Made by a program: the position numbers and the translations under genes. Shown here in pieces: positions 40,026 through 59,829 of a stretch of DNA of 64,000 bases (positions are counted from its first letter, which is position 1; each line of letters starts with the position of its first letter). The DNA comes from Akkermansia muciniphila. GTDB taxonomy: Bacteria > Verrucomicrobiota > Verrucomicrobiia > Opitutales > Opitutaceae. The notes under the pieces are model-generated. The model was not told where the DNA came from, did no database searches, and was given only the letters and a program-made list of their open reading frames with translations. The stretch covers positions 62,001-126,000 of the forward strand of contig CAMCZZ010000006.1 of NCBI GenBank assembly GCA_945888375.1. The letters run 5' to 3'.

Positions 40026-40109
40026 CGCCTTCGTCACCCCCGCATCCACAGCGCCACCCCGCCCGCCCGCGAGCTTGAAAAATCCCTTCCGCCCGCCTCG
40101 CTCCCGCCC

Positions 40110-40385
40110 ATGGCCCACCACGACCCCCTCCCACCCCTGCCCGCTTTCCCCGCACCGGGGATCTATCGCCACGCCAAAGGGAACCTCTACGAAGTCCTCG
40201 GCCTCGTCCGCCATTCCGAGGATCTCTCCCCCCTCGTGCTTTACCGCCGCCTCGACGAGCAGGGCCAGCCACTGCCGGATACCCCCTGGGTTCGGCCATG
40301 GTCAATGTGGAGCGAACTCGTCCCCGGCCCGTCCGGACCAGTCCCGCGCTTCCAAAGGATCTTATCAGCCTCCCCCAGCATCTAG
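40110..40385 (+). CDS. DUF1653-family protein
   Basis: A 91-residue protein with the DUF1653 pattern: GIYRHAKGNLYEVLGLVRHS, EDLSPLVLYRRLDEQG and WVRPWSMWSELV. This family has a small beta-rich fold and no known function. It is divergent from the AraC gene (84-base gap). Its last residues run into the start of the non-coding AT-rich stretch. Confidence 0.88.
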   Translation: MAHHDPLPPLPAFPAPGIYRHAKGNLYEVLGLVRHSEDLSPLVLYRRLDEQGQPLPDTPWVRPWSMWSELVPGPSGPVPRFQRILSASPSI

Positions 40386-40634: not shown

Positions 40635-41684
40635 GTGCCCCGCCCCCCTAGCCAATATCTCCTCGCCCGCCGGCTGAATCTGTCGGGAGCCACCGTATCC
40701 CGGGCGCTCGCCAACCACCCCGCGCTCAGCACCGAGACCCGCGCCCGCGTCCAAGCCCTGGCGGATGAGCTCGGTTACCGCGGGACTGCCGCTCGAAGCG
40801 TGCGCCGCGCGGCCAACGCACCGACTCTTAAATTAGGCGTCTTACTGGGTGAACCCCTCGTCCCCGCCGACCACCTGGCCCTGCCCCGGATCCTCGAAGG
40901 CATCCGCTCCCGCGCCCAGCTGGACCACGCCGAAATCGACCTGCTGCCCTTCGCCCCCGGCGAGACCACCCCGCTGGCCGGTCGCCGGCGCCTCTTCGGG
41001 CACCTGCGGGCCGCCGGCTGGCGCGGCGCCCTCCTCCTCTACCCTTTTCCCGAGGCTACCGTCTCCATGCTGGCCGATAAGCTCTCCGTTGTCTCCGTCC
41101 TGCACGAATGCGCCGATGAGCGTATCGATACCATAGATACCGACCACGGCGCCATCCGCGTCCTGGTGGCCCGCCTTGCCGCCCTCGGCCACCGCCGGAT
41201 CGGCTTCGCTACCTGGGCCTACCCCGCTGGCGGCCTGTGGGCTTCGCGCCGCTTCGCGGCCTTCGCCGAGGCGTTGTTCGCCCGCGGCCTCCCGCTCGAC
41301 CCCGCCCGCGTTTGCAATGTCGGCCCGGCCTCCATCACCTGCGCCGAGCCAGCCGCCCTGGCAGACGCCGTCCGCACCATCACCCGCCGCGATGGCGTCA
41401 CGGCCTGGGTCTGCGCCGCCGACCACCAAGCCTACCAATTGATCGCCGACCTTACCGCCAGCGGCCTGCGCGTGCCTGTCGACGTCTCTGTCACCGGCTT
41501 CGACGGCCAGCCCGTCCCCCCGGGCCTGCCCGCGCTGACGACCGTCTCCGTGCCCAACGCCGATATCGGCGCCTCCGCCGCCGCCAGCCTCGTCAACCGC
41601 CTGCTCCAGCCTTCCTCCCAGCGCCGCCTCACCCTCGTCACCCCGCGCCTGGTCGAGGGCGCCACCACCGCCTCCCCCCGCTGA
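40635..41684 (+). CDS. LacI-family transcriptional regulator
   Basis: GTG start at 40635. The HTH begins at once: [20 protein letters not shown] and [20 protein letters not shown] with [13 protein letters not shown] as hinge. The rest is a type-1 periplasmic-binding-like sensor (about 62-340) containing [38 protein letters not shown] and [17 protein letters not shown]. 349 residues, standard. It lies 50 bases ahead of xylose isomerase and is the only LacI-type gene in the window, so it may control xylA and perhaps the sugar island downstream. Ligand not readable. Confidence 0.93.
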
Positions 41685-41734
41685 TCCTCCGCCCCTTTCC
41701 CGTTCGTTCAACCCACCCAAACCCACCGACCACC

Positions 41735-43081
<1,347 letters not shown>

Positions 43082-44361: not shown

Positions 44362-45585
44362 TCAGGCACGACGGCCATGCTGATCGTAAAGGCGGATATG
44401 CGCGAGCAACCCGGCGAAGTCAGTCCACGCCACGCCCGCCACATTATCGGCTGCGCCATAGGTCATGAGCAGGCGACCGTCGGGGCGCACAATACCGCCA
44501 CAGGTGAAAACGCACGGTGTCTTGAAGCGACCTTCAAGTTCCCACCGCTTTTTCGCATATTGGAGACGATCCGGGCAGCGGTGTTTCACCACCGGCCATC
44601 CATCAGGGCCGGGCGCGAGGATCATGAACGACTGGGTGTAGCCGACCACCGAGTCCTGCTTGGCGTGATACGGTAGCAGCCACTCCCCGTCTTCGAGCGC
44701 GAGCGGCACCCAACTGGCGCCGACCCGGTTGCCTTCCCAGACGAACTCGGAGCGGGCGATCAAGCGATGCGCCGCCGCCGCCGTCGGCAGATCCTCAATA
44801 CGGTCCGCCACCGCGAGAAAAATCGCCGGCGGCAGGGCCGCGAACTCCGCCCCGAAAGAGCCGGGTTGAAACGGACGATGCAGGCACGCGTAGCGCTCGC
44901 GCCCGTCAATGAAGAGCTTTTGCGGGAAGGGAAACACGTCGCGGTTATCGCCGCGCTCGGGGTCGTTGAGGTGCGTGACGTAGGTGAAGGCACGCTCGTA
45001 GGCGCGGGCTTTGAGCGCCTCCAGATCAACCTCCCACAACACGGTCACGGAGAGGTTTTCGGACGCGGCGCGGCCGAGTTGGTGCCGCCCTTCGCGTGCC
45101 CAGTCCGGCGCGCACTGCATCGGCTCGTCGTGTTCCCAATAGGGTCCCGGTGCGAACATCCGGCACGCCGTCGTGCAATAAAGCCGTCCATCAAGGTGGA
45201 AGAGGCGAGGGTCTTCAATGCAACCGTTGGCATGATTGACCATGTCGCGGCCATCGCGCGCCCGGATCCGGATCGTCTCCGGAGTGGTGCCGAGCGCCGG
45301 CCCGAGCGCCGGCTTGGAAAAGTCGGCCTTCCAAGTCATGCCCTCGTCGTCACTGGTGGCGTAGCCGAGGAAAATCGGAAAGGGCAGCGGCCGTCCCGCG
45401 ACCTGCGCCTGCGCCCAGGGGCCGGTGGCGCGGAAAAGCATGTGCAGACGCGTCGTGCCCGGTTCGTCGATCACGGTCGGGTTGAGCAACATCGTATCCG
45501 CCCAGGCGATACCCGGTTGCGGCACGAGCACGGGTGCGTCCAGAGTTTCAAAGAGAGGCAAGGCCAGGGAGGAGGGCGAAGACAT
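44362..45585 (-). CDS. GH130-family glycoside phosphorylase/hydrolase
   Basis: Five-bladed beta-propeller enzyme acting on beta-mannosides. Motifs of the family: TMLLNPTVIDEPGTTRLHML, GCIEDPRLFHLDGRLYCTT with the catalytic-region EDPR, NRDVFPFPQKLFIDGRERYA, CLHRPFQPGSFG, GNRVGASWVPLALEDGEWLL, and GGIVRPDGRLLMTYGAADNV. At 407 residues, cytoplasmic (no signal peptide). GH130 phosphorylases release mannose-1-phosphate from mannosyl-glucose or mannosyl-GlcNAc; some members hydrolyse instead. Which applies is not visible. A TATAC-type palindrome lies 66 bases upstream, and the MFS transporter gene just upstream probably supplies its substrate. Confidence 0.85.
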   Translation of the reverse strand: MSSPSSLALPLFETLDAPVLVPQPGIAWADTMLLNPTVIDEPGTTRLHMLFRATGPWAQAQVAGRPLPFPIFLGYATSDDEGMTWKADFSKPALGPALGTTPETIRIRARDGRDMVNHANGCIEDPRLFHLDGRLYCTTACRMFAPGPYWEHDEPMQCAPDWAREGRHQLGRAASENLSVTVLWEVDLEALKARAYERAFTYVTHLNDPERGDNRDVFPFPQKLFIDGRERYACLHRPFQPGSFGAEFAALPPAIFLAVADRIEDLPTAAAAHRLIARSEFVWEGNRVGASWVPLALEDGEWLLPYHAKQDSVVGYTQSFMILAPGPDGWPVVKHRCPDRLQYAKKRWELEGRFKTPCVFTCGGIVRPDGRLLMTYGAADNVAGVAWTDFAGLLAHIRLYDQHGRRA

Positions 45586-45650
45586 GGGAGATCAAAGGGG
45601 TGATCCAAGACGCTGTGAATGCCACGCAGGCCCCGCAATCGATGGCAGGC

Positions 45651-45661
45651 TATACGGTAAA
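45651..45661. promoter_or_regulatory. Shared operator site 1 (before GH130)
   Basis: TATACGGTAAA, within the near-palindrome GCTATACGGTAAAGC. Located 66 bases before the GH130 start and after the MFS stop. The 13-mer GCTATACGGTAAA recurs exactly, in reverse complement, at 47202-47214 before the MFS gene. Confidence 0.6.
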
Positions 45662-45716
45662 GCGAAAATTGGCGGACCGCGGATGTCCTGCGCCGTGGGC
45701 CGCACGGTGCCCGCCC

Positions 45717-47153
45717 TCAAACCGGGGGCACGTAGTTCTTTAGCCCGCCGTAACGCATGAAGCCCCGCCAGACTACGAGAAAGAAGAGCAGCCCGATGAA
45801 GCCGAGCGCTCCGCTCATGATAAAAGTGTGGCGGTAAACGTGGCCGTTGAGATCAAGGTATTTTCCGAGCAGGGGCGGCAGCACCATGAAGAAGGGCGCG
45901 CTGACTATGCCTGCGGCGGAGGCGAACTGGGCGAACTTGGCACGAGGAAAGAGTCGCTGGCCGATGGAGGCGGTGCCGGTGTTGTAGATACCTTGGATGA
46001 CGCCGTGGGCGACGAAGGCCACGGAAAAGGTCGCCGTATCGGTCGCTGCCCAGCCACCCCAGAACATGAAAATCGTGTAGAGCATCAAAGAAAGGATACC
46101 CAAACGCACCGGATGAAAACGATCAGCCAGCGCGCCGGTGACGTAGCTCAAGACCAGCGAGCACGCGAAGGTGATGACGAGGAGATTCCCGTAGCTGTTC
46201 ATATCCATTCCGATTCCCTTGGCGTAAAAGACGCTGAACGCATTGACCGGCCCGCCGGCAAGACCGCCCAGCATGAGCGCAAGAAACAGCCAGAGATAAA
46301 ACGGATTGGCGAAACACTCCCTGGCGTAGGCGCCGATCGGTTTCGACATCCGTGCAATGCCCGTGGCGTCAGGGTCAAGCGGCGGAGGCGGCGGATATTC
46401 GCCTTCACGCACGCGCAGACACATCAAGGTGAAGCCCACCCCGTAGAGCAGGCCCAGCCCGAGGAAGATAGCGGTGTAATGCTGCTCGGCGTGGCCGATC
46501 AGCCAGAAGTTGAAAATCATGCCCGCAATCAAGCTGATCGCGCGAAACAAACCGAAGAAACGGCCGATCACTTCCTGCGGCACGACGTCGTTGATCAGCC
46601 CGCCCAACACCGCTTGGGCGACAGTCTGGAAAATCTCGAAAACGGTCCAGAAAAAGCCGAAGACGATCAAGCGGCAGCCGACATCCCCTGGAGAATTTAC
46701 GCCCAGCGCCTGATGCAGCCAGCCAGCGACGGGAACCGTGTAAGCAAGCCCAGCCATGGAGAACGCAATCAGCGGCGTCGGGATGAGCAGATAGGGGATG
46801 CGTCGCCCCCAACGCCCGCGATGGCGGTCGGATTTCACGCTGATGATCGGCACCAGAATCAACCCGATCGCGGCCGGAACGGACCCAACCAGCAAGCCGA
46901 CCACAAAATCGCTCGAACCAAACTGGCGAAGCATCAGCTGGGCGACAGGACCAACTGCACGATCCTTCATCGCCCACGCAAAATCGCCCCAGAGCAACCA
47001 CGCGAAGAGCGCAAAAAGCCCGGCGGTGGTGTAGGTTAGCGTGCCCGCCCGCCACACCTTGCTCCCGTGCTTCGAGGAAACCGGTGCCTCTTGACCGTCA
47101 TCGGGCTTGCTAGGGGAAGGGGCAGCGGCGAGATCGGGCTTGTCTTGGGGCAT
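45717..47153 (-). CDS. MFS sugar transporter (GPH/SLC45-like)
   Basis: About 478 residues from ATG 47153 (MPQDKPDLAAAPSPSKPDDG), with a cytoplasmic N-terminal tail and twelve hydrophobic segments. Seen: LFALFAWLLWGDFAWAMKDR, SVPAAIGLILVPIISVKSDR, the loop motif HRGRWGRRIPYLLIPTPLIA, VLSYVTGALADRFHPVRLGI in the second half. The loop 2-3 arginine-rich motif is that of sugar:cation symporters of the GPH/SLC45 sort common in Verrucomicrobiota saccharide loci. Probably imports the mannoside or uronide oligosaccharide used by GH130. An operator site lies 49 bases upstream. Confidence 0.85.
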   Translation of the reverse strand: MPQDKPDLAAAPSPSKPDDGQEAPVSSKHGSKVWRAGTLTYTTAGLFALFAWLLWGDFAWAMKDRAVGPVAQLMLRQFGSSDFVVGLLVGSVPAAIGLILVPIISVKSDRHRGRWGRRIPYLLIPTPLIAFSMAGLAYTVPVAGWLHQALGVNSPGDVGCRLIVFGFFWTVFEIFQTVAQAVLGGLINDVVPQEVIGRFFGLFRAISLIAGMIFNFWLIGHAEQHYTAIFLGLGLLYGVGFTLMCLRVREGEYPPPPPLDPDATGIARMSKPIGAYARECFANPFYLWLFLALMLGGLAGGPVNAFSVFYAKGIGMDMNSYGNLLVITFACSLVLSYVTGALADRFHPVRLGILSLMLYTIFMFWGGWAATDTATFSVAFVAHGVIQGIYNTGTASIGQRLFPRAKFAQFASAAGIVSAPFFMVLPPLLGKYLDLNGHVYRHTFIMSGALGFIGLLFFLVVWRGFMRYGGLKNYVPPV

Positions 47154-47201
47154 GATCGCCAAAAGGGCTTATCGCCCCGCCTGCGGCGAATCGACTTTAG
47201 A

Positions 47202-47212
47202 TTTACCGTATA
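47202..47212. promoter_or_regulatory. Shared operator site 2 (before MFS transporter)
   Basis: TTTACCGTATA; with the following GC it is the exact reverse complement of site 1. Lies 49 bases upstream of the transporter start, in the divergent region shared with the pseudopilin gene. Confidence 0.6.
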
Positions 47213-47313
47213 GCCACGTTACCTAACGCCTCATCCACCGGCAGTTCCGCAGCGGATAGAAGGCACCTGCCCCAGCTCCCGCAGTTATCCATTTCTTCCT
47301 GGGTAGGTATTAC

Positions 47314-47324
47314 TATACCATATA
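47314..47324. promoter_or_regulatory. Shared operator site 3 (before pseudopilin-type gene)
   Basis: TATACCATATA inside the palindrome ACTATACCATATAGT (47312-47326). Differs from the others by A for G in the right half. 48 bases upstream of the gene start. Confidence 0.5.
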
Positions 47325-47371
47325 GTCTTAATCTTTTAGCAAACTCATCCTCCTAGCCTCAATTTTGGATC

Positions 47372-48175
47372 ATGCCCCCCGTATCCACTACCCTCCATCG
47401 GAAAACTGGTTTCACCCTGATCGAGCTGCTCACCGTCATCGCGATCATCGGTATCCTCGCCGCCATCATCATTCCCACCGTAGGCGCGGTCCGTAAACGC
47501 GCGAAGGCCGCCCAGACCACTGCCAACATGCGCCAAGTCGGTCAGGCGGTCGCCACCTACAACGCAGATAACAAGGATTTTATGCCTTACGCCCGCGAAG
47601 GCGGCGGCCTCCAGCCCTCCGTGCACGAGTGGATCAACGTCATAGCCGTCGGCCACAAGGGAGACGGCAGTTGGAGCGACAAAGGTTCCCGGCTCGGTGC
47701 CCACATCGCACCCTACTTGGGCGTCAAGGCTCAGGTGGGCACGGATGTGGCCATTCCAGCCCTCAGGGACGAGGCTTGGCGCGCTGCGGCCGCCGAAAAA
47801 GGGGTGAATGTGGACATCTACTGGACCATGCCGACCTTCGTTCTCAACTCCACCCTCCGGAAGGCCTACCACCCCAGCCTCACCGGTTCGGTCTTGTATC
47901 CTTGGGGCAAGGACAGCACGTCACCCATAACTTTGGCCAAATCCGGCACCTATGGATTCGCGATTCGCCAGATGGCCGCGCATAGTCGCGTCTGGGCGAT
48001 GATCCAGAACGATCGCCAGCTCATGACTGATTCGGGCGGCGAAATCACCAACGGCATGGTTGGTGCCAACTCGCCCGATACACCGGTCAACGGCGGCTCT
48101 TCACGCCTCGCCCTCATGTTCGACTGGAGCGTGCGCTCCATCCCGACCGACCACAATTTGCGCAGACCGCTCTGA
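47372..48175 (+). CDS. Pseudopilin-type (type II secretion G-like) protein
   Basis: Starts MPPVSTTLHRKTGFTLIELL then TVIAIIGILAAIIIPTVGAV: a prepilin leader with cleavage before FTLIE, then the hydrophobic helix used for pilus assembly. The 225 residues after it form the globular domain, ending FDWSVRSIPTDHNLRRPL, of the kind found in the many single pseudopilin genes of Verrucomicrobiota and Planctomycetota. No other pilus or secretion gene is near. Placed among saccharide genes and carrying the shared operator, it may help export or display surface components or bind polymer. Followed by a strong terminator. Confidence 0.85.
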   Translation: MPPVSTTLHRKTGFTLIELLTVIAIIGILAAIIIPTVGAVRKRAKAAQTTANMRQVGQAVATYNADNKDFMPYAREGGGLQPSVHEWINVIAVGHKGDGSWSDKGSRLGAHIAPYLGVKAQVGTDVAIPALRDEAWRAAAAEKGVNVDIYWTMPTFVLNSTLRKAYHPSLTGSVLYPWGKDSTSPITLAKSGTYGFAIRQMAAHSRVWAMIQNDRQLMTDSGGEITNGMVGANSPDTPVNGGSSRLALMFDWSVRSIPTDHNLRRPL

Positions 48176-48203
48176 TTACGCTTAGCCCGATCAACTCCCA
48201 CCC

Positions 48204-48233
48204 GGCCGGACGCTTGCGTCCGGCCTTTTTTTT
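48204..48233 (+). terminator. Intrinsic terminator after pseudopilin-type gene
   Basis: GGCCGGACG (48204-48212) pairs with CGTCCGGCC (48217-48225), followed by eight T. Very strong; the esterase start is only 20 bases further on, so expression of the esterase must come from read-through or a very close promoter. Confidence 0.9.
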
Positions 48234-48253
48234 GACCGTAGCCCCGTCCTCCC

Positions 48254-49585
48254 GTGCTGCTTTCCCTTCGCCGCTCACTTAGCTGCTTTCTTCTGTCGAC
48301 CGCGGCTGGCCTGGCCGAGCAGCTTCCGCCGGCCTCGGGGCTCACGGCCACCCTGGAACCCGCCTCGGGCGTGCTCGCCAGCGGAGCCCTCGCGAAGATT
48401 CACTTTTCGATAACGCCTGCCGCCGCGGCGCCCGCGACCTCCGCCGTGCGCCTGCGCCGCAATGCCTCGGCCGAGCTTCCGACTGCCATCGTCAACTGGG
48501 TGGACGGCAAAGCATCGCTTCCCACCACGCTCGACGAGCCCGGGGCACTCTTTGCTTCTCTCCAAACCACCACCGGCGATGGCGAGAAACTGACCTCCCG
48601 GGCCGGCTTTGTTTTCGACCCGGAGAAGATCCGGCCGGCCGTGCCCCGCCCCGATGATTTCGACGGCTTCTGGGACGCCGAACTGGCCAAACTAGCCCTT
48701 GTGCCGCTCGACCCCGTTTTGGACCTCGGCAAGGCGCCCGCAAGCGCCAGTCCCGGAGGCATCGAATACACCCGGTTTTCGCTGGCGGTCAGCGCGACCG
48801 AGCGTGTCCGTGGCCAGCTCGCCTACCCCAAACAGGAAGGCAAAAAATTCCCCGCCCTCGTCATCTTCCAATGGGCCGGCATCTATCCGCTTTCCCCCGG
48901 CACGGTGACCGGCAACGCCGCCCAGGGCTGGCTCGCCGTCAACGTCTCCGCCCACGACCTGCCCATCGACGAGCCCAAGGCATTCTACGATGCCCTCGCC
49001 GCCGGCCCGCTCAAAAACTACGGCAACATCGGCAACGACGACCGGACCAAAAGCTACTGCCTCCGCATGTTTCTCGGCGTGCGCCGCGCCCTCGACTTTG
49101 TGCGCGCCCACCCCGCGTGGGACGGACGCGTGCTCGTCGCCCACGGCACCAGCCAGGGCGGCACCCAAGCCCTCGTCGCCGCCGCGCTAGACCCCGCCGT
49201 CACCGCCGTGGTCGCCAACGTGCCCGCCTACTGCGACCATAACGGCACCTCCGCCGGCCGCGCCCTGCCCCACCCGTATTGGCTGGCCAACACCGATGGC
49301 CGCGATGCCGCCGCCGTCGCCGCCACCGCGCGCTACTTCGACGTCGCCCACTTCGCCCCGCGCATCCGCGTCCCCGTGCTCGTCTCCGCCGGCCTCATCG
49401 ACGAAACATGTCCTCCGGCCGGCATCGCCGCCATGGCTAATTCTCTGGCCGGCCCGTACGAGCTTCTCTTCATGCCGCAGGCCAACCACAAGGGCGACAA
49501 CAACACCCACGCAACCTACCTCGCCCGCTCCAAGGTCTGGCTCGATGCGCTCCGTTCCGGCCTCCCCGCTCCGCCCGCGCGCTGA
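48254..49585 (+). CDS. Acetylxylan esterase-like hydrolase (CE7/AXE1)
   Basis: 443 residues from GTG 48254. Signal peptide SLRRSLSCFLLSTAAGLAEQ suggests export. Residues about 25-120 form a beta-rich N-domain, then the AXE1 alpha/beta-hydrolase: PALVIFQWAGIYPLSPGTVT, NDDRTKSYCLRMFLGVRRAL, the nucleophile elbow AHGTSQGGTQALVAAALDP, VANVPAYCDHNG, the catalytic Asp in SAGLIDETCPPAGI and His in QANHKGDNNTH. Such enzymes remove acetyl groups from xylan, glucomannan or oligosaccharides. Follows the pseudopilin gene past a terminator. Confidence 0.82.
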   Translation: MLLSLRRSLSCFLLSTAAGLAEQLPPASGLTATLEPASGVLASGALAKIHFSITPAAAAPATSAVRLRRNASAELPTAIVNWVDGKASLPTTLDEPGALFASLQTTTGDGEKLTSRAGFVFDPEKIRPAVPRPDDFDGFWDAELAKLALVPLDPVLDLGKAPASASPGGIEYTRFSLAVSATERVRGQLAYPKQEGKKFPALVIFQWAGIYPLSPGTVTGNAAQGWLAVNVSAHDLPIDEPKAFYDALAAGPLKNYGNIGNDDRTKSYCLRMFLGVRRALDFVRAHPAWDGRVLVAHGTSQGGTQALVAAALDPAVTAVVANVPAYCDHNGTSAGRALPHPYWLANTDGRDAAAVAATARYFDVAHFAPRIRVPVLVSAGLIDETCPPAGIAAMANSLAGPYELLFMPQANHKGDNNTHATYLARSKVWLDALRSGLPAPPAR

Positions 49586-49654
49586 CTTCGCATCCCGATC
49601 CTTGCGGGAGGGACACCGCCCCCGGCGTGCTCGCCCGATTTCCAGCCTAAGTTG

Positions 49655-50764
49655 TCAGGCCATCATCGCGGCTTGCTCACGTGTGATCGCGTGCTGCAAG
49701 GGCCGTCCCTCGATCCACCGCTCCAGCTCGTCCAGCGCGAGAGCGCCCATGCGCGCGCACTCCGGGCCGTAGGAGCCCGCGAGATGCGGTGTCATCACGA
49801 CATTAGGCAGGTTGAATAACGGCGACTCCGGCGCCGGCGGCTCGGGATCGGTGACATCCAGCACCGCCGTCAGATCTTCCCGCCGCGTCAGCAACGCGAT
49901 CAACGCGCGCTCGTCCAGGACGTCGCCGCGGCTCGTGTTGATCAGCGTCGCGCCCGGCTTCAGCAACGCCAGTCGTCGCGCGTCGATCAACCGGTTCGTC
50001 TGAGCAAGTTGTGGCACATGAAGGCTCACCACGTCGCTTGTCGCCAGCAGGGTGTCGAGCTCCACCGCGCACACACCCAGTCGGTCGAAGGTCGCTCGCG
50101 GCTGCACCGGATCCCAAGCGACGACTTCCATCGCGAAAGGCCGCAACAACTCCGCCACCCGCTGCGCCACGCGGCCGAAAGAAACCAGACCCACGCGGCT
50201 GCCCACCAATCCGGGCACGAGCGGCAGATAGTGGTAGGCCGTGCGCCAGCCCGCCCGGGCGTCCCGGACAAAACGCCAGCCGTGCTTGAGGCTAAAAATG
50301 ATTTCGCCGACGCAAAACTCCGCCGTCGTGGCCGAATTCGCCGCCGCCGCCGTGCTCACCACGATGCCGCGCTCCCAGGCCGCGTCGGTCATGAATCCCC
50401 GCACCGATCCCGCCGCGTAAAAGACCGCCTTCAACTTCGGCGCTCGGTTCAGAAAATCCGCGTCGAGCACCGGCATGCCCCAGCCGCCGATCACCACCTC
50501 CACGTCGCGCCAGCCCGGATCCAGCGTCTCCGTGACCGGAAGCAGCTGCGCCAGCTCCCCCGCCCGCGCCCTCGCCGTCGGCGGATAGACCGAGTCGGCG
50601 TGCAGCGGCCGCACGATCAGCGCCGCCTTCGGGCGAGCCAGACCATCGGTCCTCGAGGCGCGGGCCGTCGCGAAACCGTCTTCCGCCACCGGGATGGGCG
50701 ACGAGCTGTCAGAGACCGGCGCGGTGGTTCCGAGGATCATGAGGTTGGAAAAAAGGGCGGACAT
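49655..50764 (-). CDS. D-2-hydroxyacid dehydrogenase-type oxidoreductase
   Basis: About 369 residues from ATG 50764 (MSALFSNLMILGTTAPVSDS). D-isomer 2-hydroxyacid dehydrogenase pattern: APKLKAVFYAAGSVRGFMTD, NSATTAEFCVGEIIFSLKHG, the NAD domain SRVGLVSFGRVAQRVAELLR, SLHVPQLAQTNRLIDARRLA, catalytic Arg in LINTSRGDVLDERALIALL, Glu in VLDVTDPEPPAPES, and His in VVMTPHLAGSYGPEC. The nucleotide loop GxGxxG reads SFGRVA, with the first and last glycine replaced. Likely reduces or oxidises a sugar-derived 2-keto/hydroxy acid. An operator site lies 73 bases upstream. Confidence 0.86.
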   Translation of the reverse strand: MSALFSNLMILGTTAPVSDSSSPIPVAEDGFATARASRTDGLARPKAALIVRPLHADSVYPPTARARAGELAQLLPVTETLDPGWRDVEVVIGGWGMPVLDADFLNRAPKLKAVFYAAGSVRGFMTDAAWERGIVVSTAAAANSATTAEFCVGEIIFSLKHGWRFVRDARAGWRTAYHYLPLVPGLVGSRVGLVSFGRVAQRVAELLRPFAMEVVAWDPVQPRATFDRLGVCAVELDTLLATSDVVSLHVPQLAQTNRLIDARRLALLKPGATLINTSRGDVLDERALIALLTRREDLTAVLDVTDPEPPAPESPLFNLPNVVMTPHLAGSYGPECARMGALALDELERWIEGRPLQHAITREQAAMMA

Positions 50765-50836
50765 GGACGGCGGACACTTGCCACCACCGGATTTAGCTTG
50801 GCCCGCCCCCGACATGCCTAGCGACACAGCGTTGAT

Positions 50837-50847
50837 TATACGGTAAA
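50837..50847. promoter_or_regulatory. Shared operator site 4 (before hydroxyacid dehydrogenase)
   Basis: TATACGGTAAA, identical to site 1 over 11 bases, 73 bases before the start at 50764. Confidence 0.6.
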
Positions 50848-50917
50848 CAAACCCGGGGCTTTGCTCGTGGGGGAAAGGATTGAATTCAGGCGTTAGATAC
50901 ACTTCGACCGCCGGGTT

Positions 50918-50955
50918 CGTCCCCGTTTGGCGTCAAAGGACACCAGACGGGGACG
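50918..50955. terminator. Hairpin downstream of giant repeat protein
   Basis: CGTCCCCGTTTGG (50918-50930) pairs with CCAGACGGGGACG (50943-50955), one mismatch. It ends 18 bases after the stop of the giant surface-protein gene. No T-run, so termination is only probable. Confidence 0.4.
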
Positions 50956-50972
50956 GAGCCTTCTCAACCGGC

Positions 50973-53900
50973 CTAGTAGCTCACTTCAAGGCGCAGGAAG
51001 CGGCGGGGCTGGTCGCTGATCAACACCGAGTCCTCGGCCGTCACCAGGCCAGCTGTGTTGGCCGCTCCGGTGCTGGTAAAGACCACCGTGGCGCCCGACC
51101 AGGGCGCGGTGAGATCGTTGGAGGCCTTGACCGTGTAGGTAATGGCGGGGTCGGCCACGCGGGTGAAGCTCAGGGTGAGTTTGCCCGCCGCCTGCCCGAT
51201 CGTCACCGCCGGGCCCGAGTTCGCGATCAAGGGATTGGTGCCCGTGGCGTATTCGAGCAAGTTGGCCCGTCCATCATTGTCCTGGTCCGCGAGGTCGGCG
51301 CCGGCGCCGCTGTTTGCAGCGTCGTTGAAGTTAGCAAAACGCCACTCTTCCAGCGCGGTGAGCAAGGGTGCGCCCGAGCTCGTCACCACGAGGCTACCGG
51401 TGCCGGCGAAGGCACCCGACGCATGGGCCGAGGTATAGGTGCCGGCAGCCTGTTGCACGCCGTTGAGGAACAATTTATCCACGGTGTCCGTTCCGGCGAA
51501 GTTCAGCTCCAACACCGCCCCGGTGGCGATGCTGACGCTGGAGGCGTCGTTGTTGGCATTGGCCGCGCCGAGCGCGACTTTTCCCGCCGTTACGGTGGTG
51601 CTGCCAGCGTAGGCCGGGTTGGGAATAGTCAGCGTGCCCGCCCCGAGTTTGGTGAGGCCGCCCGCGCCAGTGAGGGTGGTGTTCGCCCCCAGCGTGACGT
51701 TGCCGACCGTCGCCGAATCGGCGTGGAAGGTGCCGCCGCTCGCGCCGAGGATCAAGTTGATCGTGCCCTGCGCGGTGGCATCCACCCCGGCCACCGTGAG
51801 GCTGGAGCCCGCGATGTTCCGGAGGGTGCCGCCGTTGAGCGTGAGATTGCGCAGGGAGTTGGCGGCGAAGGTCGCGCCGCTGCCGGTGATGGTGGTGGCG
51901 CGAAGCTCACCCGCATTCAGATTGTAGTTCGCGGTCAACCGAGGCGATTCAGCGTTGGCGTTGAACCCGAGGTTGACCGTGGTGGCGGTGAATGTGCCGC
52001 CATTTTGGTTGATCGTTCCATTCAAGGTAGGCGCACCGGTGGAGGCCACGGGCGGGGTGTTGTCGTTGGTGCTCTTCGCAGCGATCGAAAGCGTATCCGC
52101 CGTGATCGTGCCCGCATCAAAGGTGAAGGTGCCCGTGGACGAGGTGCCGCCCGCATTCGCGAAATGGCGCGCGATATAGAACGTCGTCGCCTGAATATCG
52201 ACGGTGCCGCCCGTCGTGTTGAGTATGCCCGTGCCGCTTTGGTTGCCAGAGTTGACCGCAGGCACGGAGACGCGCGCGGCGGATCCGGTGCCGCCGGGAC
52301 CGCGCACGGTCAGCGTCGGGCTGGTGAGACCGGGCTGGAAGGATACGTTGCCGCTGCCTTGGAAGTTGCCGACGACGAACTCACCGCTCACGTTGATGTT
52401 ATTGGTCTGGCCTAGACCCACCACCGTGTTTTGGCCCGCGAAGTTTCCGCCGCCGCCGCCGAAGCGGACATGAGCGGCGTCGAATTGGTTGATCCCGGAC
52501 TTGGCCAGGAGCACGGTGTTCACTACGTTGGCGCCCGTGGCGTTGACGCCAAAAGCGCGGGTGAGACCGGTGAAGGTGAAGTTGGTCAACCCGGTGAGGT
52601 CGAGATTCGTGCCGGTGACGGTGCCGGCCACGTTGACGTCGGCCAGCGCCTGAAGCGTAAGGCCACCGGTGCCGAGGATCACGCCGGGAGCATTAAGCTG
52701 CATTCCGGCAATGGTCTGGTTGAGGCTGCCCAGATCGAGCGTGCCGCCGCTGCCGGTGAAATTCAAGATCGAGGCTGAGGGAATCGCGCCAGCGGTAGTC
52801 GGCCGCAGGGTGCCCTGGAAGATGCCGGTCTGGCCGGTGTATCCATTGACGCCCGTGAGCTCCAGAATCCCGGGGCCGGTCTTGGCAAAGCCGTAACCCG
52901 GGACGGTGACCAGCGAGGTGAGCAGGCCATCGATCTGAACCGGGCCTGTAGCATTGGTCGTATCGATACCGACGAAGGTGCTACCCGTCGGCTGGATGCT
53001 GGCATTGTTGAGCAAATCGTCGAACTGCGTCGGGGACCACTCGCCGACCCCGCCCATGCGGACGGTGAGGGCGGCGCCTGAAGCGACCGCGACGCGAACA
53101 GGAAGCTCGCCCCCTGACAATTCAGGATCCTGGTAACCGGGCAAGGTGCCGGGTTTGGCGGCTACGAGGAGGCCGGCCGAAATCGTCGTAACCCCAGCAT
53201 AGGTGTTATCGCTGGTGAGGATGAGAGGACCGGCGCCGGTCTTCGTGAGACCGCCCGCGCCGGAAATCGCCGTGTTGATGGTGAGCGGACCGGTGTAGGG
53301 CGAAGCGTTGCCGATCGACGACGCAGTCGGTCCGGAGAGCACAATCGAGCGGCCCGCATCCAAGGTGATGGCGGCATTGGTGCTGGGCTGGGCGAGCAGC
53401 GTGGCCCCGCCGGCGATGGTCACGCTGTTCTTCACGTTACCCAAGCTCCCATCCGACTGGATGCCCAGCGTGCCGCCCAAGATACCGATGGGGCCTGAAA
53501 TCGAATTTGGCGCGTTGTTAAAACGGAAGGTCAAGGTGCCGGGGCCGGTCTTGTCGAAGCCTTGGTTGCCCGCCAGTGAGCCGTAGAAAAAGAGCGAGCC
53601 ACCGGCTAGTGAGACGTTGATCGCGGGCACGCCTGCAGTCTGTTCGAGCCGGAGCACATCGTCGGCGGTGTCGGCCTTGCCGATCGAACTACCAACCCCG
53701 TAGGTGACGTTCAAGGCACCCACGGTGTAGGGATAAGTTCCGCCTACGCTGTCAAGAAAGGGCACGGGAGCCAGCGAGGCCGCAGCCGTAGCCGTAGCGG
53801 TGGGGCCCGACAAGGTCACTGCCGGCGCCACGAGATAACCCGAGCCGGGGTGCGTTACCACGATCGAGGTCACCGCCCCACCGGTCACCACCGCGTAGCC

Positions 53901-54662
53901 GGTGGCGCGGGTGCCGTCCGCGGGAGCGGCGGCAAAGGTCACCGACGGAGGAGCCACAAAGCCGGCCCCGCCCGCTCCGATCACCACGCCGCTGACGCCG
54001 CCGGCTGCGAGGGTGGACGTGGCCGTGGCCACCGTGCCGGCCGTGGGCGCGGCCATCGCCACCGTGGGCACGGCGGCGTAGACGCCGGGCGCGCTGATGT
54101 TAAAGCCAACCACGCCGAGGGCGGTATGCGCCTCGGCCGTCGCGCCGCTTCCGCCGCCGCCCGTGAGCGTCACGGTGGGGACGGAGGTAAAGCCGTAACC
54201 CTGGATCTGCACGGTGACGCCGGTCACCTTGCCGGTCACGGCGTCGATCGCGGCGACACCGGAAGCGTTCACCGTGGCGCCGCCACCCGAGAAGACGACG
54301 GTGGGAGCGGTGGTGTAGCCCGAGCCGCCGTTGGTCACGTTCACGATTGCTACGCGGTTTTGTAGATTGGCGGTGGCGACCATCCCCCCCGCATTAAACG
54401 TCACCGCCGGGGCGGACACGTAGCCGAGCCCGGCGTTGGTGATCGAAAGATTGGCCACGCCGCCATTGGCGGCCAGGGTGGCGACCGCACCGGCGGCATT
54501 CGGCACGCCCGCCGACCAGTTGGCCGCGGTGCCCCATTGTTGCCCGGAGACCGAGGCGTTAAAGGTGGACTGAGCGAGGAGCCCGCCGACCGGGAGCGAA
54601 GCGAGCGCCGCCATCAGGGCGGCGCGGGAGGAACGTGAGCAAGCAAACGGGGTGGTTTTCAT
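50973..54662 (-). CDS. Giant surface/exported beta-repeat protein (autotransporter-associated repeats)
   Basis: About 1,229 residues from ATG 54662: signal peptide MKTTPFACSRSSRAALMAAL and ASLPVGGLLA. Then six repeats of the form G-x-G-Y/F-x3-P-x-V (GLGYVSAPAV, GSGYTTAPTV, GYGFTSVPTV, PGVYAAVPTV, GAGFVAPPSV, GSGYLVAPAV; about residues 55-290), several autotransporter-associated beta-strand repeats (GGLTKTGAGPLILTSDNTYA, GYGFAKTGPGILELTGVNGY), a core module shared with the neighbouring gene (about 690-1010), and a C-terminal domain EWRFANFNDAANSGAGADLA ... LEYATGTNP and RRFLRLEVSY, an export/anchor tail type frequent in Opitutaceae. No beta-barrel autotransporter domain. Operator site 5 lies 147 bases upstream. 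Confidence 0.85.
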   Translation of the reverse strand: MKTTPFACSRSSRAALMAALASLPVGGLLAQSTFNASVSGQQWGTAANWSAGVPNAAGAVATLAANGGVANLSITNAGLGYVSAPAVTFNAGGMVATANLQNRVAIVNVTNGGSGYTTAPTVVFSGGGATVNASGVAAIDAVTGKVTGVTVQIQGYGFTSVPTVTLTGGGGSGATAEAHTALGVVGFNISAPGVYAAVPTVAMAAPTAGTVATATSTLAAGGVSGVVIGAGGAGFVAPPSVTFAAAPADGTRATGYAVVTGGAVTSIVVTHPGSGYLVAPAVTLSGPTATATAAASLAPVPFLDSVGGTYPYTVGALNVTYGVGSSIGKADTADDVLRLEQTAGVPAINVSLAGGSLFFYGSLAGNQGFDKTGPGTLTFRFNNAPNSISGPIGILGGTLGIQSDGSLGNVKNSVTIAGGATLLAQPSTNAAITLDAGRSIVLSGPTASSIGNASPYTGPLTINTAISGAGGLTKTGAGPLILTSDNTYAGVTTISAGLLVAAKPGTLPGYQDPELSGGELPVRVAVASGAALTVRMGGVGEWSPTQFDDLLNNASIQPTGSTFVGIDTTNATGPVQIDGLLTSLVTVPGYGFAKTGPGILELTGVNGYTGQTGIFQGTLRPTTAGAIPSASILNFTGSGGTLDLGSLNQTIAGMQLNAPGVILGTGGLTLQALADVNVAGTVTGTNLDLTGLTNFTFTGLTRAFGVNATGANVVNTVLLAKSGINQFDAAHVRFGGGGGNFAGQNTVVGLGQTNNINVSGEFVVGNFQGSGNVSFQPGLTSPTLTVRGPGGTGSAARVSVPAVNSGNQSGTGILNTTGGTVDIQATTFYIARHFANAGGTSSTGTFTFDAGTITADTLSIAAKSTNDNTPPVASTGAPTLNGTINQNGGTFTATTVNLGFNANAESPRLTANYNLNAGELRATTITGSGATFAANSLRNLTLNGGTLRNIAGSSLTVAGVDATAQGTINLILGASGGTFHADSATVGNVTLGANTTLTGAGGLTKLGAGTLTIPNPAYAGSTTVTAGKVALGAANANNDASSVSIATGAVLELNFAGTDTVDKLFLNGVQQAAGTYTSAHASGAFAGTGSLVVTSSGAPLLTALEEWRFANFNDAANSGAGADLADQDNDGRANLLEYATGTNPLIANSGPAVTIGQAAGKLTLSFTRVADPAITYTVKASNDLTAPWSGATVVFTSTGAANTAGLVTAEDSVLISDQPRRFLRLEVSY

Positions 54663-54808
54663 GGGGGATATTGGGAAAATCGAACGGAGACGAAAGCGGT
54701 TCAGCGACACCTATCCGTGTCACGATCCCGCCCCGTCGCGAAACGGGGGGAGCGATCAGGAACTCAGACTCCTGACCATTCAGGACTCGATAGCGAATCC
54801 AACGGAGA

Positions 54809-54819
54809 TATACGGTATA
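54809..54819. promoter_or_regulatory. Shared operator site 5 (before giant repeat protein)
   Basis: TATACGGTATA, a perfect palindrome except for its centre, 147 bases before the start at 54662. Confidence 0.65.
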
Positions 54820-54838
54820 ATGGGTGAGAAGCACCAAA

Positions 54839-54892
54839 GGCGCGGGTAGAACCCGCGCCGGGAAAAAGGGCCGACTCCGAAGAGATCGGCCC
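54839..54892 (-). terminator. Double terminator after PEP-CTERM repeat protein
   Basis: On the minus strand GGGCCGA (54892-54886) pairs with TCGGCCC (54874-54868) and is followed by TTTTT. A second perfect 9-bp hairpin, GGCGCGGGT-x3-ACCCGCGCC, spans 54839-54859. Together they separate the two giant repeat-protein genes. Confidence 0.85.
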
Positions 54893-54904
54893 GGCGATCA
54901 GGCC

Positions 54905-57449
54905 TTACACCACGCGACGACGGCGGCGCAGGGAAACGCAACCCAACACGCCCAGACCGGCCAGCGCCGCGAAAGTTGACGGCTCGGGAATCGCGGAGAC
55001 ATTCAGAGTGAGATCATTCGCCCCCAGCACAAACGAACCCACCAGCCCGGAGCCCAGATTGGTCGCCACGAAATCCGACTGCGAGAATGTCGTGCCGCCG
55101 AAGGACGTCAGGGTGTAGCTGCCGCCGTCCAACCCGCCGCCCCCGAAGTCGAAGGTGAAGCCGATTCCGGTGCCCTTGGTGAAGGCGCCGGAGAGCGAAA
55201 GGCGATCCGAAGAAGTCAGACCGCTTAGCTCGAATACCAAGGAGCCGCCGTTGTTCCACGTGAAGCTGGAGCCCGATAGGGTGCCGATGCCAGTGCCGGG
55301 GGCGAGCGAACCGGAGTTCAAGGTGATCGCGCCCACGGTGCCGGAGCCGCCCAAGGAACCTCCGCCAATGGTGACGGCGGAAGAGGCGAGACTGGCGTTA
55401 ACGAATACGGTGCCAGCGTTGATGCCAAACGCCCCCGAGTAGGTGTGGGTGGGCCCACTGGCGAAGGTGAGTGAGCCGGCTCCGGACTTGGTAAGGGCAC
55501 CGCTTCCGCTCAGCACCGTGTTCGCGCCGAGGGTGATGGAACGGGTAGCATCCGCATTGAAAGTCGCGCCAGAGGCTCCGGCGATGACGTTGATGCGACC
55601 AGTCGCCGTGGTGGCGAGGCCATCGACCGAAAGGTTGCCTCCTGCGAGATTCTGCAGGGTGCCGCCATTGATGGTGAGGTTGCGCACGGTGCTTGCGCCG
55701 TAAGTGGCGCCGGAACCTTGAATCGTCGTGGCGAAGAGGGTGCCGCCGGTGAGGTTGTAGTTGGCGATGAGGTTGGGAGACTCAGCATTAGTATTGAGAC
55801 CTAAATTGACAGTGGTCGCCGTAACGGTGCCGCCGGATTGGTTGAATGTGCCGTTAAGGGTCGGTGCTCCACTCGTGGCACCCGTTTTAGCGGCGAGGTT
55901 CAGTGTCGTGGCCACAACCGAGCCGGCCGGCATGGTGACTGTTCCCGTGGAGGAGGTGCCGCTAGAACCCGCGAAATGCCGAGCCACATAGAAATCGGTC
56001 GCCTGAGCGTCCAAACTCCCATTCGTGAGATTGAGGATGCCCGTGGAACCTTGATTGCCCGAGTTGGTGGAACCGACCGACATAACTGGCGCAGCTCCGA
56101 TTCCACCGGCGCCACGCACGGTCAAAGAGGGATTGGTCAATCCACTTTGGAACGAGACGTTTCCGCTGCCCTGGAAGAAGCCGATCACGAACTCGCCCGA
56201 AGCGTTGATGTTGTTGTTCTGGCCGAGTCCTAGCAAAACGTTTTGACCAGCTACATTACTGCCACCGCCACCGAAGCGGACGTTAGTGGCATTGATCGTG
56301 TTGGTGCCGGTTCTGGCGAGGTTCACCGTGTTTACGACGTTCAGGCCAGTGGAGTTAATCCCGAAGTCGCCGGCAGTGCGGTTGACCGTCAAGTTGCTCA
56401 AGCCCGCCATGTTTACCGTAGTCCCAGTGACAGTCGTGCTCCACGTGGTGTTGGCTGCAAAGTTGACGATCAAGGTGCCGCCCGCACCGCTGATCGTGTT
56501 GGTCTGGCCGGCACCAAGCAATCCAAGCCCGCCGAGTGTCTGTGAAGTGCTGCCCACATCCAGCGTCGAAGCCGCGTTGAAGGTCACCGTGCTGGTGCTC
56601 AACAACCGGTTGTCTCCGCCGGACAGGGCGAGCGTGCCGCCGTCGAGAAAAGTGCCTCCGGTGAAAGTGTTGGCACCGCTCAAGGTGAGCGTGCCGGAGT
56701 CGTTCTTACGCAATTGGGCCGTGCCGGAAATCACGCCCGCGATGGTCATGTTCGCGCCGGCTTTGTTCTTCACCCAGAAAGCTCCAGTGCCGCTGGTAGT
56801 GATCGTGCGGGCCGAGTTCAGCGTAAAATTTCCAGCCGAAGCGTCGTTGTAAAAACCGACCGGCTGACCGCTGAGCGCAACGGAAATGACGTTCACCGAA
56901 TTACCGAGGTTGGCATCGCTATTTATCACCGTGAAGCTACCGCCTCCCGAGGCGGGCGCGGTCAGTTTGACGGTGCCGGTGAAAACATTGGTGACGCCCG
57001 AGAGATCGAGGTAGCCGTTGCCTTGGCGTTCGAAGCCGTTGGTGCCGTCGAGGACCGAACTGATCTTGAAGCGGTTCGCCGCCGATTCGCTAAACGCATT
57101 GTTGGTTCCTGTGCTGATAACAGGGGAGTTGACACCGTTGGCCAAGGTCAAGGTGCCGCCGGAGATCGTCAGCCCCCCGTTAGCTGTAGTGTCAGTCGCG
57201 AGGATCTGCCCGACGGTGAAAGCAGTATCCACTGTGATCGTCTGGCCTGCCCAGTTTTGTGAAAAGGTGGCGGTCTCGGTGGCGGCGTTTGGCACCCCTC
57301 CTGTCCACGGTCCGGTGGACCAGTTACCCGAGGCAAGGTTTGTCCACGAGCCGCTGGCGGCGTAAACAGAAGGCATCGCGGCCAGCGCGGCGAAGAGCGC
57401 TAGGGTGGCGGCACGACGGCCGTTCGATATCGATTTTGGGGTATTCATT
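54905..57449 (-). CDS. PEP-CTERM beta-repeat surface protein, paralogue of upstream neighbour
   Basis: About 847 residues from ATG 57449 (MNTPKSISNGRRAATLALFA, ALAAMPSVYAASGSW), a signal peptide. Contains autotransporter-associated repeats (SGTLTLSGANTFTGGTFLDG, GSLTFASGPTHTYSGAFGIN) and, at about residues 345-650, a core module clearly homologous to that of the next gene: both carry NVRFGGGG/HVRFGGGG, LGLGQNNNINASGEFV, SGNVSFQSGLTNPSLTVRG, STGILNLTNG and FYVARHFAGSSGTSSTGTV. The end is a PEP-CTERM sorting tail: IPEPSTFAALAGLGVLGCVS, LRRRRRVV. So the protein is sorted by an exosortase system encoded elsewhere. Operator site 6 is 135 bases upstream. Confidence 0.88.
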
Positions 57450-57583
57450 ATTGAAAAATAGGACACGGAAAGATCGGCGCGCGGGGCGGCCAGACTTGGC
57501 ATGATGAGTTGGGGTTAGGGGGGTGAACTAATAACCTCGGGTTCCTGCCACACTTGCTGACCTGCACGCGACGCCGTCGTGAT

Positions 57584-57594
57584 TATACAGTATA
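57584..57594. promoter_or_regulatory. Shared operator site 6 (before PEP-CTERM protein)
   Basis: TATACAGTATA, perfect palindrome around a central A. 135 bases before the start at 57449. It also lies right after the end of the GH5 remnant. Confidence 0.65.
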
Positions 57595-57596
57595 GT

Positions 57597-58382
57597 TCAA
57601 CGGTTTCTCGGCCCGATTTTGCCTACGGGTCTTTTGGTGACCAACCTTGGCGCACCGTTTGGGAACAGGGCTGCGCGCAGCTCTGGGGAAAACTTCCCCG
57701 GTCCGGTCTCCCGGACATACCCGAAGCCCGCCTCCAAATCCCACCAAGCCCAGCCCAGCCCGTTCCCGTCGAGTTCCTCCCGCATCGCCCGCGCGAAGGC
57801 TAGGCGCGACGTGGAGTCGGCGTTTCGATACGCGCCAAACTCGCCGCTGTGCACCGCCCGTCATTCCCGCCGCCACCACACCGCCGCCTCGGCCAAAAGG
57901 CCGGAAAGGGCCGGGACTCTGCTGAGATTGCTCTCTGTCGCCGCGGTGTTGTGCGCCCGCGCCCACTCCTTCGTCCGCTCCGGCCCGTCATTCGCCGCCA
58001 CGACCGGAACGAGCGGCGGCCCCGGAAACACGATCCCGGTCGTCCCCGTCAACCCGCCCGTGCAGCCCGCGCCTTGGTGAGTGAACAGGAACGGCTCGTA
58101 GCAATGCGCCGTCACCACCACGTTTTCCCATTCGCTGGAAATTCGGAGTTCCGCGATCGCCTTCACCGACCCCCAGTCGCCCGGTGAGAGCAGAATCGTC
58201 CGCTTTGAACTCACCTTCCGTATCGCCCTCATTACCTCGGGATACAGCGCGTTCATCCGCGCCGTCGTCTCCGCACCGCGCGGTTCGTTTAAGAGTGCGA
58301 ACATCAGCGAGGGCGCCGGCACCCGGCGATAGTGGCGTGCGATCCCGAACGCTGCCTCGAATTTGAAAGGGAGTCCGCTCAA
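57597..58382 (-). pseudogene. GH5 endoglucanase/mannanase-like remnant with in-frame stop
   Basis: One continuous frame apart from a TGA at 57861-57863. Before the stop: SLMFALLNEPRGAETTARMN with the GH5 acid/base Glu (NEP), RKVSSKRTILLSPGDWGSVK, VVVTAHCYEPFLFTHQGAG. After it, in the same frame: VHSGEFGAYRNADSTSRLAF with the nucleophile Glu, and GLGWAWWDLEAGFGYVRETG. The barrel's first strands and any signal peptide are missing: the frame opens 3 bases inside operator site 7, with a TAA before it. The product would lack the nucleophile, so the gene is inactive. It must once have acted on a beta-glucan or mannan. Confidence 0.75.
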
Positions 58383-58384
58383 GC

Positions 58385-58395
58385 TTTACCGTATA
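58385..58395. promoter_or_regulatory. Shared operator site 7 (before GH-A hydrolase and secreted protein)
   Basis: TTTACCGTATA, within GCTTTACCGTATATC. 235 bases before the ATG at 58630 and abutting the truncated end of the GH5 remnant. No gene is recognisable between 58400 and 58629. Confidence 0.55.
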
Positions 58396-58629
58396 TCTAT
58401 CGGGGCATCGCGACCTCCGGAGACGACGACTCATTCTCTCGCTCCCCGCTATGCATGCCTTTGTGCCTTTGCCCTGCTCTCAACCACCTGCCGCGACGCC
58501 TCCTTAGAACCCGAGGTCAAATACCGAGCCGTGCGTGTCGGCGTGGATCTCATCGCCCACGACCTTATCGCCGTCTTCAGCGTCGTCTTCCGCTTCGCCC
58601 CGAACGCCGCGGCAACTTAACCCGACCCT

Positions 58630-59829
58630 ATGCCACACGCTCACCTCACTCCTGCGGCCGATATCCTCGCCGCCGTCGCACCTCTCCGCCCCTCCCTCGG
58701 CGGCCGCCTTGAGCCCACGCTGCTCGCCGCCCGCCTCGGCGCGACCCACTGCGCCGGCCGCTACGCCTTCACTCCGGAGCCCTACGTCGTCGAGGGGGCA
58801 AAGACCATCCACGGCCGCCTCGGCTACCGCCACCTCAAGCTCTGGTTTTACGAACTGGAGCAGGTTTACTCGCAAAACTCGTCCTGGAACCTCTCCGCCT
58901 ACCCCACCCTCGCCGCCCGCGCCGCCCACCCCTACTTCCGCGCCGCCTTCGCCGAGCCCTTCGCCACCATCGCACTGGAGGTCAAGTTCAGCCCCGCCGG
59001 CGATCTCCACCCGCGCCCACCCGGCCACATGGTCGCGTCGGACATGGACTTCGCGCGCGAGGAGGAGCAGTTGTATCAACTCACCAAATACTTGCTCGCC
59101 ACCTACTGCGACCGCGCCGTCACCTTCATCCTGCAAAACTGGGAGGGCGACTGGATGATCCGCGAATTCCCCGGCGCGATGTGGACCGACCCGGCCAAAA
59201 TCCCCGCCGACCTTGACCAGCGGGTCGAGACCTACGTGCGCTGGTTCGCCGCCCGCCAGCGCGGCGTCTCCCGCGCCCGCGCCGAGTTGTCCGCCGCCGG
59301 CTCAAAATGCCGCGTCCTCCACGCTATCGAAGTCAACCGCGTCTTCGATACCCTCCTCGGCGCCCCAACCCTCTGCAACCGCGTGCTGCCCCGCGTCGAA
59401 GTGGACCTAATTTCCTGGTCGGCCTACGACGGCATGCAGATCGACGCCCACGGCACCGGGGACGCCGCCGCCATCGGCATCTGGCAAGGCATCGAGATCA
59501 TCCGCGCCCACGCCCGGACGATCGAACGCGACGGCAAGGGCCGCCCCCAGGTGATGCTCGGAGAATTCGGCGTGGCGGAGAACAAGCTCCCGCCCGAGAA
59601 GAACGCCGAGGACATCCTCGAAGGCACCGTTGCTGCCGCCCTCGCGCAGGACGCGTGCTTACTGCACTACTGGGAACTTTTCTGTAACGAGTCCAACGAC
59701 CCCAAATACCGCGACGCCCCGCTCGACCGCAACCTGCGCGCCGACGAGCTTGGCGGCTTCTGGCTCATCAAGCCCGACGACACCCTCGGCCGCGCCGGCG
59801 CCTGGTTTGCAAAACGGCTCGGCCGATGA
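58630..59829 (+). CDS. GH-A-clan TIM-barrel glycoside hydrolase, family unassigned
   Basis: 399 residues without signal peptide. A (beta/alpha)8 pattern is suggested by TFILQNWEGDWMIREFPGAM with a likely acid/base Glu, CRVLHAIEVNRVFDTLLGAP, VEVDLISWSAYDGMQIDAHG, and the likely nucleophile Glu in QVMLGEFGVAENKLPPEKNA, then LLHYWELFCNESNDPKYRD. The placing of Glu residues after strands 4 and 7 is that of clan GH-A. Family and substrate are not clear; neighbours suggest mannan, glucuronan or alginate oligomers. Its TGA overlaps the ATG of the next gene (ATGA), so they are coupled. Confidence 0.6.
   Translation: MPHAHLTPAADILAAVAPLRPSLGGRLEPTLLAARLGATHCAGRYAFTPEPYVVEGAKTIHGRLGYRHLKLWFYELEQVYSQNSSWNLSAYPTLAARAAHPYFRAAFAEPFATIALEVKFSPAGDLHPRPPGHMVASDMDFAREEEQLYQLTKYLLATYCDRAVTFILQNWEGDWMIREFPGAMWTDPAKIPADLDQRVETYVRWFAARQRGVSRARAELSAAGSKCRVLHAIEVNRVFDTLLGAPTLCNRVLPRVEVDLISWSAYDGMQIDAHGTGDAAAIGIWQGIEIIRAHARTIERDGKGRPQVMLGEFGVAENKLPPEKNAEDILEGTVAAALAQDACLLHYWELFCNESNDPKYRDAPLDRNLRADELGGFWLIKPDDTLGRAGAWFAKRLGR

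Follow-up and report, generated by a model that had tools for sequence, protein, structure and literature searches.

The window analysed here is a stretch of 64,000 nucleotides, C6:62001-126000 of a 3.22-Mb genome in 39 contigs (G000). Its genes between 44362 and 62687 encode a GH130 protein of the mannoside phosphorylase family (44362-45585, minus strand; Pfam PF04041), an MFS sugar transporter (45717-47162, minus strand; Pfam MFS_2/MFS_1), a type II pseudopilin-like protein (47372-48175, plus strand; PF07963, TIGR01710-like), an AXE1 acetyl-ester hydrolase (48254-49585, plus strand; PF05448), whose gene is probably co-transcribed with the pseudopilin gene, and a D-isomer 2-hydroxyacid dehydrogenase (49655-50821, minus strand; PF02826) whose start codon is uncertain. 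Two repeat proteins follow, which a preliminary description of this DNA had called giant. They are indeed repeat proteins, of the PATR autotransporter-repeat type, but measure only 1245 aa (50973-54710, minus strand; PF12951) and 865 aa (54905-57502, minus strand; PF12951, PF07589), the smaller one with a PEP-CTERM sorting signal. Next comes a gene pair on the plus strand, encoding a protein without a match in the Pfam search (58630-59829) and a 953-aa secreted protein without a match in Pfam and PDB searches (59826-62687). The first of the pair has a 66% identical paralogue at C25:6271-7491, one member of this family without Pfam match lying in each of the two putative regulon loci discussed below. 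The window cluster also holds an alginate-lyase-family protein, and it continues past the window with genes for an alpha-L-rhamnosidase, a GH2 protein, a TIM-barrel and Gfo/Idh pair, a GH5 protein, an esterase, a heparinase-like protein and transporters.

Upstream of these genes lie seven copies of a putative operator, a palindrome with an 11-nt odd core, TWTAC-N-GTAWA, and no flanking symmetry outside it, followed after 12 bases by T-N-G. The copies are TTTACCGTATA + N12 + TTG (45636-45661, minus strand), 65 bp before the GH130 gene; TATACGGTAAA + N12 + TCG (47187-47212, minus strand), before the MFS gene; TATACCATATA + N12 + TAG (47314-47339, plus strand), 58 bp before the pseudopilin gene; TTTACCGTATA + N12 + TCG (50822-50847, minus strand), before the dehydrogenase gene; TATACCGTATA + N12 + TCG (54794-54819, minus strand) and TATACTGTATA + N12 + TCG (57569-57594, minus strand), before the 1245-aa and 865-aa PATR genes, respectively; and TTTACCGTATA + N12 + TCG (58385-58410, plus strand), before the pair at 58630-62687. 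The preliminary description had listed seven 11-mers with their positions; all were recovered there, and they are the sole places in the window within one mismatch. A search of both strands with up to one mismatch to TATACNGTAWA gives exactly seven places (14 strand matches), as against a mean of 0.33 palindrome places and a maximum of two in shuffled windows. The T-N-G element orients the sites: that at 47202 faces the MFS gene and that at 47314 the pseudopilin gene. Two details differ from the first account. The sites precede their target genes as it held, but the one at 50837 falls within the longest open reading frame of the dehydrogenase, and the real start codon therefore lies downstream of the site. 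The sites at 45651 and 47202 do share sequence, over 14 bases (TTTACCGTATAGCC) and not 13.

Scanning the whole genome, as had been called for, shows that the sites cluster. Exact TWTACNGTAWA occurs at eight places, seven of them within 23 kb (C6:107651-130668). Allowing one mismatch to TATACNGTATA gives 14 places: nine in C6:107651-133975, the variant at window position 47314 included, two in contig C25 and three elsewhere. The nine thus fall in 26 kb, or 0.8% of the genome (binomial P near 3e-16 by hand calculation). The two on C25 precede a LacI gene and a PL8 gene in a second polysaccharide locus. Exact matches to the composite TWTACNGTAWA-N12-TNG number seven genome-wide and are confined to C6:107636-130683. 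The seven sites first described do not delimit the cluster, which extends past the window: a site at C6:130658 precedes the TIM-barrel and Gfo/Idh pair, another at C6:133965 precedes the GH5 gene, and C6:138259, before a second pseudopilin gene, is probably a further one.

A scan of relatives had also been suggested. Of 14 congeners, three (G002, G004 and G009) carry sites before orthologues, often at identical spacing. In G004, sites lie before the GH130 gene (65 bp, as in the window), the pseudopilin gene (58 bp, likewise) and the MFS gene; in G002, before the pseudopilin gene (same sequence, same 58-bp spacing), the dehydrogenase gene and both PATR genes; and in G009, before both PATR genes, the dehydrogenase gene, a GH2 gene and the PL8 gene. 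The palindromes are islands of identity within diverged intergenic regions, both between the MFS and pseudopilin genes, where the MFS-site palindrome of G004 is identical to that of the window, and ahead of the second PATR gene, where G002 has the same palindrome in a diverged background. Among the 14 congeners the composite was found in the same three genomes only, plus one match within coding sequence in G011. The complete genome G010 has no intergenic sites. In most of the other congeners, TTTACSGTAAA-type palindromes lie in coding sequence, probably by chance; we set them aside. Judged from sequence comparison, the palindrome before the polysaccharide genes is a genuine conserved control site, far beyond chance.

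The preliminary description recognised the palindrome and overlooked the directional element beside it. When 25 target sites were aligned in gene direction, a T at +23 and a G at +25 emerged, exactly 12 bases past the palindrome on the target-gene side. All 10 G000 sites have the T, nine have the G and nine a C at +26, and the T-N-G signal amounts to 2.47 bits vs. a null maximum of 1.64 (100 columns, 2000 shifted control sets). With nine sites from other genera added, two of which had been found by the composite itself (G085 and L253, the G352 locus) and seven of which come from LacI loci fetched by protein, T is present in 33 and G in 30 of 34 target sites; among those seven, six have T-N-G. 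Between divergent genes T-N-G flanks the palindrome on both sides (G200, G009:C145, G009:C163), and it would therefore be part of the target promoter and not of the symmetric operator. A search of the flanks for a -35 or -10 element found none outside the palindrome.

The partner regulator is more likely a LacI-family protein encoded at C25:14655-15710 than the window's own LacI, to which we return below. G000 encodes 12 to 13 LacI-family proteins. When the LacI genes of G000, G002, G004, G009 and the complete genome G010 were gathered and compared, the C25 LacI was the sole one of G000 with orthologues in site-bearing genomes yet none in G010. These orthologues are in G002 (78%) and G009 (72%) only, and a search of 57 relatives gave nothing else above 42% identity among the matches listed. 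G004 has sites, and no orthologue was found in its 85%-complete assembly. TRGACAGTATAGC lies 16-20 bp ahead of the start codon in all three orthologues (G000, G002 and G009), a feature that was not a criterion in picking the gene. This own site has a degenerate sequence (TAGACAGTATA / TGGACAGTATA) and lacks T-N-G toward the LacI gene. The same LacI loci of G002 and G009 have exact palindromes before PL14-type lyase genes. The C25 protein has a LacI helix-turn-helix (PF00356, 39.0 bits vs. a cut-off of 27) and full-length similarity to other LacI proteins; Pfam gave no match to a C-terminal sensor domain of the periplasmic-binding-protein type, and the G009 orthologue scores 21.0 bits for Peripla_BP_3, below the cut-off of 26.5. 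A second conserved block, AGCTTGCA, is seen upstream of C25-type LacI genes (L204, L206, L207), about 19 bp before TATAGC, and is probably the -35 region of the LacI promoter or part of the divergent sulfatase promoter. Two more LacI genes adjoin sites in G009 (C163 and C210), and LacI paralogues may therefore share the operator. The one at G009:C210, which diverges from the dehydrogenase gene across a site, was rejected as the regulator, having no G000 orthologue above 39%. In L033, such an extra G009 LacI gene lies at 6657-7808, inserted by the dehydrogenase gene with the operator between and without a close G000 orthologue.

Genomes outside the genus tie the palindrome to one type of LacI protein. 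Across the order, 35 of 373 genomes matched the composite, mostly once; 10 composite loci were inspected, and six have a related LacI in the same stretch (G020, G085, G330, G200, G387, G352). The LacI subfamily was then aligned (alignment A1), and relatives were fetched from named genomes by protein alone. The resulting 22 loci hold 14 exact palindromes vs. 0.3 expected, although about five of the 22 are not independent, because some A1 LacI sequences came from genomes first found by motif; of the remaining 17, seven still carry an exact copy at the LacI promoter. Nine of the 14 lie ahead of the LacI match start, at a distance of 13-49 bp, and a two-mismatch variant is found at the LacI promoter in three further loci. 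Autoregulation is predicted from these computed sites: a variant copy precedes the LacI gene in G000, G002 and G009, and an exact one does so in nine loci. In seven cases the palindrome-bearing LacI gene diverges from a TonB-dependent receptor gene. This arrangement, with one palindrome between, appears as a recurrent module in Opitutae (L253, L255, L257, L258, L259, L260, L262), and in L257, L259 and L262 the palindrome stands just 2 bp before the LacI start codon. A subfamily LacI with palindrome and T-N-G is also seen in L256, labelled Candidatus Hydrogenedentes, which could be a lateral transfer or a binning error.

As the leading explanation, held with high confidence, we propose that TWTACNGTAWA is the predicted operator of a LacI subfamily with the recognition helix GVSxMTVSLALRN, common in Opitutae, and that the C25 LacI most likely controls the loci at C6:107-138 kb and on C25 as well as its own gene. 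The idea of a single regulon that links saccharide import and degradation with surface repeat proteins, which had been put forward from the window, is supported by the clustering, the orthologue sites in three congeners and the link to the LacI subfamily. More tentatively, the Opitutae subfamily might use a composite in which a short odd operator stands at fixed spacing to an undescribed promoter element, T-N-G, 12 bp downstream, the two acting as one unit. If so, this would be a lineage-specific promoter architecture, which genes for TonB-dependent receptors and polysaccharide lyases would share across many genera.

The C25 locus gives an indication of the substrate. The LacI gene there adjoins a sulfatase gene and a xanthan-lyase-like PL8 gene, and the locus also encodes GH5 and GH10 proteins, an ABC sugar transporter and a PATR protein. 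The site lies 73 bp before the gene of the 1524-aa PL8 protein, and the PL8 orthologue of G009 also has one, 63 bp upstream. The best structure matches of the PL8 protein are to xanthan lyase (1.2e-158) vs. chondroitin AC lyase (2.2e-99), whereas the sulfatase neighbour points to another acidic polymer. A xanthan-like substrate is thus suggested by the PL8 similarity and a sulfated one by the sulfatase gene; we infer an acidic heteropolysaccharide.

These loci both resemble and depart from known systems. A LacI helix-turn-helix regulator, a perfect inverted repeat upstream of carbohydrate genes, sites placed mostly 30-140 bp ahead of start codons and predicted autoregulation are shared with the local carbohydrate regulons of LacI proteins (RegPrecise; PMC4052901). 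In a survey of 1303 LacI motifs, 1251 were even palindromes 16-22 nt long, most of them with CG at the centre, and odd, non-canonical motifs (17, 19 or 21 nt) made up 4%; 72% of the regulators were autoregulated (PMC4052901). Unlike those operators, the core here is 11 nt long and odd, has a central C-N-G and is joined by T-N-G at fixed distance. The site had been described as LacI-like in form; the candidate cognate protein is indeed of the LacI family, but the site is short, odd and without the usual central CG. The survey makes no mention of Verrucomicrobia (PMC4052901), and our comparison with known LacI systems found no counterpart of T-N-G. In Xanthomonas CUT loci, SuxR, a LacI/GalR-family repressor, occurs with a TonB-dependent receptor (PMC1790865). 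Those loci likewise place a LacI-family gene by a TonB-dependent receptor, a sugar transporter and enzymes, but they belong to another phylum; here the palindrome is short and odd, and the predicted targets in the window genome, distributed over two loci, comprise PATR proteins, pseudopilins and lyases. The commonly controlled clusters of genes for transporters, lyases, hydrolases, esterases and sulfatases also recall the polysaccharide utilisation loci of Bacteroidetes. However, the window cluster showed no SusC/SusD pair, and the predicted control is by LacI and not by hybrid two-component or sigma/anti-sigma systems. Among the papers searched, none connects Opitutaceae, LacI and TonB-dependent receptors, and the papers listed as matches to the literal site sequences seem, from their titles and abstracts, to have no bearing on this system.

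Verrucomicrobia break down the polysaccharides of algae and bacteria in lakes and seas, and to our knowledge little is known about their transcription control. With TWTACNGTAWA-N12-TNG as a portable signature and a likely regulator, regulons and the enzymes used together on each polymer could be read from metagenomic genomes without culture. T-N-G itself is a testable lead on promoter function in this phylum.

How might the element work? The regulon would combine surface repeat proteins with the import and degradation of an acidic polysaccharide, perhaps a xanthan-like one. A LacI dimer would bind the palindrome and repress, and a saccharide released from the polymer would, by default, lift the repression. 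The fixed register of palindrome and T-N-G would place the operator at a set position in the core promoter. Two geometries can be envisaged: the left arm TWTACN could be the -35 element, 17 bp from T-N-G, or the right arm TAWANY could be the -10 element, with T-N-G among the first transcribed bases. Under both, bound LacI would block RNA polymerase. Alternatively, LacI may act as an activator and bring in RNA polymerase at a set distance; in favour of this are the constant spacing from operator to T-N-G, seen at over 30 promoters, and the lack of a recognisable -35 box. We regard activation as rather unlikely. Local LacI regulators are mostly sugar-responsive repressors, an operator overlapping the core promoter would equally give a fixed register, and self-repression fits those LacI genes whose start codon follows the site at 2-15 bp.

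The direction of T-N-G and its constant 12-bp spacing also favour a promoter specific to a sigma factor, for example with TWTACN as -35, a 17-bp spacer and T-N-G as -10, the palindrome being incidental; the distance from TWTACN to T-N-G is exactly 17 bp, and the flanks hold no other -35 or -10 signal. Yet the two arms of the palindrome are conserved equally, independent genomes repeatedly show the palindrome at promoters of one LacI subfamily, and T-N-G is unlike any known -10 element. An incidental palindrome is accordingly improbable, and the element may be operator and promoter at once. Binding by the window's own LacI (40635-41684, plus strand), the nearest LacI gene at 4 kb from the first site and one that the preliminary description had proposed to test, is more improbable still. 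This gene lies beside xylA, the xylose isomerase gene, and has no palindrome upstream; its orthologues turned up in G002 (72%) and in the complete genome G010 (53%), which lacks intergenic sites, and not in G004 or G009, which do bear sites; and its recognition helix, SGATVSRAL, is unlike that of the palindrome-linked subfamily. On the xylA neighbour, the missing upstream site and the orthologue in siteless G010, we rejected it as the regulator. That the palindromes are chance words of promoters, which are locally AT-rich, is refuted by the way they cluster, keep their spacing and recur next to one LacI subfamily, leaving it a negligible probability.

At 40635-43081, the window LacI gene stands directly upstream of the xylose isomerase gene with very AT-rich DNA ahead, and the pair looks like a separate xylose regulon. 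An AraC-family regulator (39129-40214) is divergent from this LacI-xylA pair and is possibly a third regulator.
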